51,665 nt of DNA. Source: an uncultured Pelagibacteraceae bacterium (lineage in GTDB: Bacteria > Pseudomonadota > Alphaproteobacteria > Pelagibacterales > Pelagibacteraceae). Position 1 is the stretch's first letter. Every line of letters starts with the position of its first letter. Below the pieces are notes generated by a model. It made no database searches. It was not told where the DNA came from and saw only the letters and a program-made list of their open reading frames with translations. The stretch lies in assembly GCA_902590395.1 (NCBI GenBank), contig CACIWQ010000008.1:1-51665 (forward strand), read 5' to 3'. This document shows, in pieces, positions 38,620-42,566 of this stretch. A program made the translations under genes and the position numbers.

Positions 38620-39192
38620 ATGAAACTTAAAATTCCAAATATATTAACTATTGGTAGAATTATTTTAGTCCCAATATTTATTGGAACTTTTTATTTACCT
38701 GGTGCTTTGGGAGACTGGATACCTTTTTTTATATTTTCGTTGGCAAGTTTTACGGATTTTTTGGATGGTTTATTAGCACGTCTTTATAAAGAGGAGTCTA
38801 AACTTGGCGAGCTTCTTGACCCGGTGGCAGACAAAATTATTGTTACAAGCGCATTAATTCTATTAGTAATGAATGATACAATAAAAAATTATGAAGTAAT
38901 TGCAGCAATTATTATTATGATAAGAGAAATACTAATTTCTGGTTTAAGAGAATTTCTTGCTAAAGCAAGAATTGCTATGCCTGTAACAAAACTAGCCAAA
39001 TTCAAAACTTTTGTTCAAATGTTTTCTATAGCAATTTTGTTAACTGGAGAAAGTGGAAATAGAATATTTAACTTTGGAGATTATAATGCTCATTCCTTTG
39101 GAATTGTTTTATTATGGATAGCAGCTTTTCTTACAATATACACTGGGTATGACTACGTAAGAAAAAGAATACATCATATTGACCTTGATTAA
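38620..39192 (+). CDS. pgsA: PgsA, CDP-diacylglycerol--glycerol-3-phosphate 3-phosphatidyltransferase
   Basis: 190-residue integral membrane protein of the CDP-alcohol phosphatidyltransferase family, making phosphatidylglycerol phosphate. The catalytic motif D-x2-D-G-x2-A-R-x8-G-x3-D-x3-D is complete in DFLDGLLARLYKEESKLGELLDPVADK, starting near residue 46. The N-terminal KIPNILTIGRIILVPIF is typical. Four to six hydrophobic helices are visible. pgsA next to uvrC is a common bacterial pairing. It converges on ilvE with a 4-base overlap of stops. Confidence 0.95.
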   Translation: MKLKIPNILTIGRIILVPIFIGTFYLPGALGDWIPFFIFSLASFTDFLDGLLARLYKEESKLGELLDPVADKIIVTSALILLVMNDTIKNYEVIAAIIIMIREILISGLREFLAKARIAMPVTKLAKFKTFVQMFSIAILLTGESGNRIFNFGDYNAHSFGIVLLWIAAFLTIYTGYDYVRKRIHHIDLD

Positions 39193-40067
39193 GCTGCATT
39201 TTTTTTTCTTACCAAAGCTTGATAACTTTCGGATAAATCTTTAATAACATTGCAAATTGTAAAATTATACTTATCAATTTGCGAAACTGGGGTAACTTCA
39301 GCTGCTGTACCTGTTAGAAAGCATCCTACAAAATTAGCCATTTCTTCTGGCTTAATTTTCCTTTCAACTACTTTAATACCCTTAGATTTTGCAATCTCAA
39401 TTATACATCGTCTTGTTATACCGTCTAAAAAGGAATCTGGAATTGGAGTATGCAATTCTCCAGATTTATTTTTAAAAAAAACATTTGCTCCGGTTGCTTC
39501 AGCTATATTGCCTTGATAATCAAGCATCATTGAATCCGTAAAACCTTCTTTTTCTGCATCATGTTTTGAAAGGGTGCAAATCATATAAAGTCCTGAAGCC
39601 TTTGTATCCCATGGAATTGTATCTGGTGCAGGTCTTTTCCATTTTGATATATTTAGTTTAATACCTTTATTAATATCGTAATAAGGGCCCCACTCCCAAG
39701 CGGCGATAGCTACGTTTATTTTAGTTTGTTGAGCAGAAATTGCCATCATTTCGCTTCCTCTCCAAGCTATTGGCCTAACATAACCATTTTTTATTTTTTG
39801 AATTGCTACAATATCTTTTGTAGCTTTATTTAATAATTCTTCTGTATATGGAATTTTAAAACCCATTCTAGAGGCTGAATGAAACAATCTTTTTGTATGC
39901 TCTTCTAGTTTGAATATTTCTCCATCATAAACTCGTTCACCTTCAAAAACACAGCTGGCGTAATGCAATCCGTGGCTCAATAAATGTATTTTTACATCTG
40001 GCCAGTCTAATGCCTCGCCATTAATCCAAATTTTTCCCGATCTTTTATCAAAGGGTACGGCTTCCAT
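39189..40067 (-). CDS. ilvE: IlvE, branched-chain amino acid aminotransferase
   Basis: 292-residue class IV PLP aminotransferase, catalysing the last step of Leu, Ile and Val synthesis (and the first of their breakdown). HYASCVFEGERVYDGEIFKLEEHTKRLFHSA is the N-terminal signature, PLP-lysine is Lys156 (IPWDTKASGLY), and AEATGANVFF and TGTAAEVTPVSQI are the later motifs. The promoter region faces that of the marR operon and contains a 19-bp palindrome, so ilvE is likely under the same regulator. Confidence 0.95.
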   Translation of the reverse strand: MEAVPFDKRSGKIWINGEALDWPDVKIHLLSHGLHYASCVFEGERVYDGEIFKLEEHTKRLFHSASRMGFKIPYTEELLNKATKDIVAIQKIKNGYVRPIAWRGSEMMAISAQQTKINVAIAAWEWGPYYDINKGIKLNISKWKRPAPDTIPWDTKASGLYMICTLSKHDAEKEGFTDSMMLDYQGNIAEATGANVFFKNKSGELHTPIPDSFLDGITRRCIIEIAKSKGIKVVERKIKPEEMANFVGCFLTGTAAEVTPVSQIDKYNFTICNVIKDLSESYQALVRKKNAA

Positions 40068-40086
40068 AAAAAATTACCAATCTTAA

Positions 40087-40115
40087 TTGATTTATTTAGT
40101 TCAAAAAAGTATCTA
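40087..40115 (+). promoter_or_regulatory. Candidate promoter of the marR-regulator-kinase operon
   Basis: TTGATT at 40087-40092 and TATCTA at 40110-40115 are spaced by 17 bases. The -10 lies inside the palindrome. The first start codon is at 40156. Confidence 0.55.
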
Positions 40116-40134
40116 TCTTAGATAGATATGTCAA
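40106..40134 (-). promoter_or_regulatory. Candidate promoter of ilvE
   Basis: On the minus strand a consensus -35 TTGACA (40134-40129) is followed after 17 bases by TACTTT (40111-40106). The 17-base spacer is almost entirely the palindrome. The ilvE ATG is at 40067, so the leader would be about 32 bases. Confidence 0.6.
40110..40128. promoter_or_regulatory. 19-bp perfect palindrome, likely MarR-family operator
   Basis: TATCTATCT at 40110-40118, a central T at 40119 and AGATAGATA at 40120-40128 form an exact inverted repeat. It lies between divergent ilvE and marR. It covers the -10 of the plus-strand promoter and fills the spacer of the minus-strand promoter. MarR dimers bind palindromes of this size and commonly regulate their own gene and a divergent neighbour. 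Confidence 0.75.
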
Positions 40135-40155
40135 TATAACTGACCCAAAAAAACT

Positions 40156-40593
40156 ATGAGCGATTTGCTATACTTAAAAGATGACCAGATAAAAGATTTA
40201 ATTGAAGAGATATTTTATGCTTACAGAGAAACTTACTCCGACCCAAGCAAAATATTAAAAAAATATTCCTTGGGAAGCGCACATCACCGAGCCATTCACC
40301 TTATTGAAAGACATGAAGGAATAACAATAACTGGCCTTTTAAATAAATTAAAAATTACTAAACAAAGCTTAAATAGAGTTATACAGGACCTGTCAAAAAA
40401 TAAAACTATTATTATAAAAAAGGGAGAAGTAGACTCCAGGCAAAGACACATTTTCTTAAATGATAAAGGTAAAAAACTTTTTTACGAAATATTTTTACAA
40501 CAAAAAAAAAGAATTTATAATGCTCTTAAAGGCTCAGATTCTGATTCGGTAATAAAATTTAAAAATGTTTTAAATAAAATTATAAATGAATAA
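40156..40593 (+). CDS. MarR-family transcriptional regulator (PetP-like)
   Basis: 145-residue winged-helix protein. The recognition region is GITITGLLNKLKITKQSLNRVIQDLSKNKTI, followed by the wing EVDSRQRHIFLNDKGKKLF, the D-x-R-x(4) pattern typical of MarR. The N- and C-terminal helices form the dimer interface. The likely target is the palindrome just upstream. It overlaps the OmpR-like regulator gene by 8 bases. In Rhodobacter capsulatus a MarR-type protein, PetP, is encoded next to the OmpR-type PetR that is needed for cytochrome bc1 expression; this pair may be its counterpart, which is an inference from gene types and order. Confidence 0.85.
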   Translation: MSDLLYLKDDQIKDLIEEIFYAYRETYSDPSKILKKYSLGSAHHRAIHLIERHEGITITGLLNKLKITKQSLNRVIQDLSKNKTIIIKKGEVDSRQRHIFLNDKGKKLFYEIFLQQKKRIYNALKGSDSDSVIKFKNVLNKIINE

Positions 40594-41263
40594 AAAAATA
40601 TTTCACATACTAGTTGTTGATGACGACAATAGAATTAGAGAGTTGGTTAAACAATACCTTGAAGAAAATGAATTCTTGGTAACTACTGCGATTAATGCAG
40701 ATGAAGCAAAGAAAAAAATAGAAATTATAAAATTTGATATACTTATTGTGGATATTATGATGCCGGGAGAAAGTGGTTTATCTTTAACCAAAGATATAAA
40801 ACAAAGTAGTCCCGTTCCAATAATATTATTAACCGCTAAAGGCGAAACTCAAGATAGAATTGAGGGTTTGGAACTGGGAGCCGATGATTATCTTGGAAAA
40901 CCTTTTGAACCCAAAGAACTTCTTTTAAGAATAAACAACATTTTAAGCAAAATACAAAAACCGGCTTTACCAGAAGAAATACATTTGGGCCCAGCTTTGA
41001 TTAATTTAAAAAAATTGAATATAAAGGCTAATAACAAAGTTAAAAAAATTAATCCACAGGAAAAAAAAATTTTAGAGAAAATGATCGGATCGCCTGGAAA
41101 AGTTTTTTCTAGAGAAGATATAGGAAAGATAATAAATCTATCTAAAGAAAGAACTGTAGATGTAATGATTACTAGATTAAGACAAAAAATTGAAACTAAT
41201 CCAAAAAATCCTAAATATTTACAAACAATCAGGGGGTCTGGCTATGTCTTATGGACTGAATAA
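40586..41263 (+). CDS. OmpR-family response regulator (PetR-like)
   Basis: 225 residues. The receiver domain has the acidic pocket VDDD at 11-14, phospho-acceptor Asp56 (LIVDIMMPGESG), Thr83 and Lys105 (GKPFEP). The C-terminal winged helix (FSREDIGKIINLSKERTVDVMITRLRQKIE and TIRGSGYVLW) binds DNA. All switch residues are intact. It is translationally coupled to MarR upstream (8-base overlap) and to the kinase downstream (20-base overlap), so the cognate kinase is clear. Targets are unknown; petABC is a candidate if this is a PetR orthologue. Confidence 0.93.
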   Translation: MNKKIFHILVVDDDNRIRELVKQYLEENEFLVTTAINADEAKKKIEIIKFDILIVDIMMPGESGLSLTKDIKQSSPVPIILLTAKGETQDRIEGLELGADDYLGKPFEPKELLLRINNILSKIQKPALPEEIHLGPALINLKKLNIKANNKVKKINPQEKKILEKMIGSPGKVFSREDIGKIINLSKERTVDVMITRLRQKIETNPKNPKYLQTIRGSGYVLWTE

Positions 41264-42566
41264 CATTATTAAAAAAATTCTTCCTAAAAAACTTTTTTAT
41301 AGATCTCTATTAATCGTTGCTACACCAATAATTATACTGCAAATAATTATCACAATAGTTTTCTTTGATAGTTTATGGATCAAAGCAAATAAAGGGATGA
41401 CTAGATCCTTGGTGGGTGAAGTTGAAACTTTATTTGATGTTTATAGAACTCAACAAGATCAAAAACAAAAAGAAACACTTATAGCCATATACAATAAGAA
41501 TTTTGATCTTACTGTAACTCTAAAAGAAAATGAGATTTTGCCTATAAAAAAAACTGAAAGATGGTATAGCCCAATCGATAGAACTTTGAGACGTGAATTA
41601 AAACCGGTATTTGGAAATTCTTATTGGTTTGATACCACCTCATACAAAGAAATAGTCGACTTAAGAATTCAGCATAAAGAAAATATACTTCAAATATTTT
41701 TTCCAAAAAATAAAATCGCTCCATCAGCAGCCAGACTTTTTGCTTTATGGATAACGGTACCAGGTTTATTTTTAATTTTTATTGCAATAATTTTTTTAAG
41801 GAATCAAACCCGCCCGCTCGTAAACTTGGCTAAAGCTGCAGAAAAATTTGGAAAGGGAGAATATGTAAAAGAATTCAGACCATCGGGCGCAAAAGAAATA
41901 AGGCAAGCAGCCTTTGAGTTTGACAGAATGAGAAAGAGAATTACTGTACATTTAAATCAAAGATCTGAAATGCTATCAGGAATAAGCCATGATCTAAGAA
42001 CTCCTTTAACTAGATTAAAATTGCAATTGGCTTTTTTAAAAGAGAAAGATTTAGTTAAAAAAATGGGAGACGACATAGAAGAAATGGAAAGAATGCTCAA
42101 TGAGTATTTAGAATTTGCGAGTCAACAAAAAACCGAGGATACAGAGCTAACGAATCTTAATAGCATGATTGAAGATATAGCAAAAAAATACGAAAAAGAT
42201 CGTATCAATTTATTTCTTGAAGAAAGCCCTGAAATTAATATTCGACCAAATTCAATTAAAAGATGTCTAATAAATTTAATAGATAATGCTTTAGCTTATG
42301 GAAAAAGAGCTGAAATTTTTTCAAAAAAATCTATGAATGCCATGATAGTTTTAATTGATGATGACGGATCTGGAATTCCTGAAAGTGAATATCAAAACGT
42401 TTTAAAACCTTTTTACAGGATAGATAAAAGTAGAAATCAAAATAAATCTGGAGTTGGATTAGGATTATCCATTGCTAATGATATTATACGTTCTCACGGT
42501 GGAAATATTTCTCTAGAAAAAAGCCCTTTGAACGGTTTAAGGGTTAAAGTTTCTTTGCCCTTTTAA
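41244..42566 (+). CDS. EnvZ-like sensor histidine kinase
   Basis: 440 residues from the ATG at 41244. An upstream in-frame start would extend further into the response regulator and is less likely. Membrane segments at about 20-42 and 165-186 flank a sensor loop of about 120 residues outside the cytoplasmic membrane, then a HAMP domain (RNQTRPLVNLAKAAEKFGKGEY), the phospho-acceptor His249 in GISHDLRTPLTRLKLQ, the N box LINLIDNALAYG, and ATP-lid motifs DDDGSGIPE and GVGLGLSIAN. The H box closely resembles EnvZ. The signal is unknown. The 3' end overlaps the convergent UbiK-like gene by 23 bases. Confidence 0.93.
   Translation: MSYGLNNIIKKILPKKLFYRSLLIVATPIIILQIIITIVFFDSLWIKANKGMTRSLVGEVETLFDVYRTQQDQKQKETLIAIYNKNFDLTVTLKENEILPIKKTERWYSPIDRTLRRELKPVFGNSYWFDTTSYKEIVDLRIQHKENILQIFFPKNKIAPSAARLFALWITVPGLFLIFIAIIFLRNQTRPLVNLAKAAEKFGKGEYVKEFRPSGAKEIRQAAFEFDRMRKRITVHLNQRSEMLSGISHDLRTPLTRLKLQLAFLKEKDLVKKMGDDIEEMERMLNEYLEFASQQKTEDTELTNLNSMIEDIAKKYEKDRINLFLEESPEINIRPNSIKRCLINLIDNALAYGKRAEIFSKKSMNAMIVLIDDDGSGIPESEYQNVLKPFYRIDKSRNQNKSGVGLGLSIANDIIRSHGGNISLEKSPLNGLRVKVSLPF

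Follow-up and report, generated by a model that had tools for sequence, protein, structure and literature searches.

A class-wide conserved inverted repeat as the candidate operator of a MarR-family regulator shared by ilvE and a marR-two-component operon in SAR11 and other Alphaproteobacteria

The window, a stretch of 51,665 nucleotides from a SAR11 genome of the family Pelagibacteraceae, contains a divergent gene arrangement in which ilvE and a gene for a MarR-family regulator are separated by a gap of 88 bp. The genes of this locus are as follows:

39189 to 40067, minus strand: ilvE, branched-chain amino acid aminotransferase of 292 aa (474 bits with NCBIfam NF005726, cut-off 396; 268 with TIGR01122, cut-off 245.6)
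40156 to 40593, plus strand: MarR-family regulator of 145 aa, the presumed operator binder (Pfam MarR_2, E 1.4e-7, above the cut-off)
40586 to 41263, plus strand: OmpR-type response regulator, probable EssR (Response_reg and Trans_reg_C, with OmpR-like as the best family)
41244 to 42566, plus strand: EnvZ-like sensor kinase, probable EssS (HAMP, HisKA and HATPase_c, with EnvZ-like as the best family)

The top PDB sequence matches of the first plus-strand product are MarR-family structures, and the domains and best families of the other two indicate that a response regulator and an EnvZ/CpxA-like kinase share one operon with marR. The EssR-EssS system of Brucella ovis (BOV_1472-1473), which is conserved in Alphaproteobacteria, likewise consists of an OmpR-type regulator and an EnvZ/CpxA-like kinase, and it is one of the five two-component systems listed for SAR11 (PMC10746171). 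By elimination from that SAR11 list, the pair in the window is probably EssR-EssS.

Five elements in and around the ilvE-marR gap bear on its regulation:

40080 to 40096, no strand assigned: ATCTTAATTGATTTATT, in the ilvE leader, all 17 of its columns being invariant across 16 genus loci; it holds the -35 of the plus-strand promoter of the original prediction
40100 to 40128, plus strand: TTCAAA-N17-TAGATA, a putative alternative marR promoter suggested by the sequence and the class profile, with +1 near 40135, inside the operator
40106 to 40134, minus strand: TTGACA-N17-TACTTT, the ilvE promoter, whose -35 is the left half of the operator
40110 to 40128, no strand assigned: an exact 19-bp palindrome, TATCTATCT-T-AGATAGATA, probably a promoter-region feature and not an operator
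40130 to 40144, no strand assigned: the proposed operator GTCAATATAACTGAC (GTCA-N7-TGAC), adjoining the palindrome, the SAR11 form of a class-wide GTCAAYATGRCTGAC

We assembled 107 distinct loci from the SAR11 family, in which ilvE is divergent wherever it is visible. The 15-mer GTCAATATAACTGAC is kept in essentially all of them, taking the form GTCAATATAACT(G/T)AC wherever the sequence is readable; at one locus (L058) our script matched another GTCA, and the printed sequence carries the usual site. The SAR11 site lies in non-coding DNA with both halves at the same 7-bp spacing, and its right half is TTAC in most of the family, with dyad symmetry at about 4 of 7 pairs. As regards loss of marR within SAR11, the 12 genomes without a marR match were also without an ilvE match, which most likely reflects gaps in the assemblies.

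Next, 289 genomes of the class were searched with a MarR protein profile, and 107 loci from outside SAR11 were read. In 101 of these ilvE is divergent from marR; the original prediction had called the tie between branched-chain amino acid transamination and a membrane sensor system unusual, which is half right, as the gene linkage occurs in other genomes too. The strict pattern GTCA-N7-TGAC, with the consensus GTCAAYATGRCTGAC, is present in the gap of 91 of the 101 class loci with both genes, against a chance expectation of about 0.2% per gap. Near matches occur in several of the ten that lack it but are missing from L258, L259 and L260, three small, AT-rich genomes of a single genus. At another locus (L133) the site occurs twice, some 70-110 bases upstream of marR, and the two copies, inverted relative to each other (GTCAATGGTGCTGAC ... 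GTCAGCACCATTGAC), form a long inverted repeat.

The strict site is lost together with either partner gene. Where marR is kept and the genome has no close ilvE orthologue (L139, L222, L246, L251, L252 and L256), it is found in 0 of 6 genomes, one of which (L251) has a one-mismatch form. We also read 40 ilvE upstream regions from genomes without a strong marR match, four of which have a weak, diverged MarR; in those that keep ilvE without a detectable marR the strict site occurs in 0 of 36, and two members of one genus (L298 and L302) keep a degenerate site, GTCAATAAAATTGAT. Fisher's test of site presence against partner-gene loss gave p values of about 4e-6 for loss of ilvE and about 3e-24 for absence of marR, which are nominal, given that the genomes share ancestry. 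In several genomes without a detectable marR (L267, L268, L271, L282 and others of L267-L306) the response regulator gene lies directly beside the divergent ilvE, and these loci look as if marR had been precisely removed.

The site is a single-copy feature. Across 279 genomes the exact class pattern has 79 matches, of which 75 lie in the ilvE-marR gap and the other four inside coding sequence. A looser pattern gave 51 and 46 matches in the genome of the window, compared with 51 and 63 for the reversed control. We accordingly rejected a wider regulon, since the loose pattern is no commoner in this genome than its reversed control and the off-site matches in the class are all coding. A single-copy site argues for a dedicated local regulator.

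The most obvious such regulator is the product of the adjacent marR. Its recognition helix, TKQSL.RVL, is invariant or nearly so across the SAR11 family. In a set of 107 orthologues, each key residue of TKQSLxRVL is 95-100% conserved. A recognition helix so close to invariant implies that its target should be conserved in the family as well, which favors the 15-mer over the palindrome. In the three genomes that keep both genes and have wholly lost the site (L258-L260), the helix is altered to KKQSLxK(I/V)I; as the three belong to one genus, this co-variation of helix and site counts as one event. A near-normal recognition helix persists in at least five of the six genomes from which ilvE and the site have disappeared, and for this reason the regulator probably has another use in ilvE-less genomes and may act on other targets there. 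The original prediction had named the local MarR as the binding protein, and it is indeed the best candidate.

The ilvE side of the gap is the better defined of the two promoter regions. The minus-strand pair is formed by TTGACA (complement of TGTCAA at 40129-40134), a 17-base spacer at 40112-40128 and TACTTT (complement of AAAGTA at 40106-40111); its -35 and -10 bases are invariant in the 16 loci of the genus. Class-wide, TTGAC is kept and 49 of 92 loci have TAC at exactly N17, compared with 11 for the remaining spacings between 13 and 21 combined, so that this promoter is supported by conservation. A conserved GTAACATT was also observed in class loci about 20 bases upstream of GTCA; its complement, TGTTAC, would give ilvE an extended -10 (TG-n-TAC). 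The plus-strand pair originally predicted for marR, TTGATT (40087-40092), N17 and TATCTA (40110-40115), is weakly backed by conservation. In a scan of the region -35/-10 pairs occurred at the chance rate (29 found, 29.3 expected from shuffles), and neither of the originally predicted promoters was among its hits. For marR, TTGATT-N17-TATCTA and TTCAAA-N17-TAGATA both fit as putative promoters; the second agrees with the layout seen across the class, where the profile has TTGC near -30 and ATA at -4 to -2 relative to GTCA. This layout suggests that marR may be nearly leaderless. The block ATCTTAATTGATTTATT is more invariant in the 16 genus loci than the ilvE leader around it, and may be either a marR -35 region or an element of the ilvE leader.

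Taken as a whole, the locus probably contains a dedicated MarR autorepressor operator at 40130-40144, predicted to be bound by MarR and to gate ilvE together with marR-essR-essS. The regulator is of the MarR family, and the shared promoter region holds a conserved inverted repeat (91 of 101 class loci, with the TTAC/TGAC form in SAR11); the overlap of the operator with the ilvE -35 is clear, and the marR promoter and start are putative. A dimer of the adjacent MarR would bind GTCA-N7-TGAC, whose half-sites are one helical turn apart. The left half is the ilvE -35 (TTGAC) and the right half would lie at the transcription and translation start of marR, and because of this placement binding would be expected to shut both ilvE and marR-essR-essS, combining autorepression with control of the two-component system. 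MarR would then be released by a ligand, possibly a branched-chain amino acid or keto acid. The idea of shared control thus appears to hold with the site moved by about 20 bases: the two promoters very probably have one shared site, as originally proposed, and this site is the 15-mer and not the palindrome.

The alternative that survives best dispenses with a regulator altogether and regards the 15-mer as made up of two elements, the ilvE -35 (TTGAC) and the opening codons of marR (ATG RCT GAC), each kept separately. For 73 of the 92 class loci the right half possibly belongs to the marR reading frame, and part of its conservation, as well as its loss with marR, could therefore be coding. The halves can also part company, the left one often surviving the loss of marR as GTCAA (L267, L268, L279 and L286) and the right one that of ilvE (L139). 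However, in the 19 of 92 class loci where the site is in non-coding DNA its centres vary while the GTCA and TGAC arms are fixed, and these loci, like all those of SAR11, keep both halves at the 7-bp spacing. Nor would such a composite account for a near-invariant recognition helix that is altered in the one genus with both genes but no site. We hence consider this explanation unlikely.

Slightly less probable again is the original version, in which MarR has its operator in the palindrome at 40110-40128 and, bound to it as a dimer, shuts both promoters. The palindrome and both hexamer pairs with their 17-base spacers do occur at exactly the coordinates given for them, with the dyad between the ilvE -35 and -10, and just one copy was found in the 0.93-Mb assembly even when 3 mismatches were allowed. 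Perfect dyads (arms of at least 9, loop of 0-1) number 8 in the window against a mean of 2.15 in shuffles, and shuffling the 88-bp gap 20,000 times produced such a dyad by chance in 46 cases; the rarity of the palindrome in such AT-rich DNA is modest. In the 16 loci of the genus its arms are invariant or nearly so and its centre is more variable, as might be expected of an operator, but the whole promoter region is kept in these loci and the arms are conserved no better than the block at 40080-40096. Outside the genus the expected conservation in relatives with the same gene order fails: the dyad decays, most loci retaining 3-6 of 9 matching pairs at its position despite the kept gene order and MarR recognition helix, and in neighboring genera (L020-L022) the left arm is retained while the right arm is altered without compensation. 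It is on this family-wide loss that the palindrome was rejected as the operator. Being kept within the genus only, it is best regarded as a feature that the two overlapping divergent promoters have at the level of the genus; the arms continue, depending on the strand, into TAGATAC or TAGATAT. The case shows that a conspicuous palindrome may divert attention from the real site next to it.

The least probable alternative is another binder, for example autoregulation of the operon by EssR, the neighboring OmpR-type response regulator, whose gene directly follows marR and lies beside ilvE in many marR-less genomes, but the strict site is missing from marR-less genomes that retain the response regulator, and GTCA-N7-TGAC is an inverted and not a direct repeat.

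The favored arrangement, a MarR operator at the 15-mer, is already known in kind. MarR-family autorepressors acting at a divergent intergenic operator are a general textbook arrangement, and the present locus shares with them the local MarR gene, the divergent metabolic neighbor and one dyad of about 15-20 bp lying over promoter elements. It differs from them in that the site is single and conserved class-wide, and in that the operon runs on into a two-component system; its age, single copy and envelope-stress link set it apart. PetP-PetR of Rhodobacter capsulatus also combines a MarR protein with an OmpR-type regulator, and resembles the locus in this pairing of a MarR gene with an OmpR-type response regulator gene, the comparison being one of gene pairing alone. 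Our literature search found no description of the operator or of the ilvE-marR link. In the study of EssR-EssS no CenR binding was reported at the essRS promoter and upstream control of essRS was left open, and MarR and ilvE are unmentioned in its main text (PMC10746171).

These observations point to a precise candidate operator for a regulator that is uncharacterised yet found class-wide, and to a possible upstream control of EssR-EssS. The wide retention of a dedicated one-site regulator, streamlined genomes included, prompts one to ask what it might sense. More tentatively, we suggest that an ancient one-site regulator might sense a branched-chain metabolite, with one operator setting both IlvE and EssR-EssS in Alphaproteobacteria. 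If this is true, envelope sensing would be coupled to branched-chain supply and perhaps to that of fatty-acid precursors.
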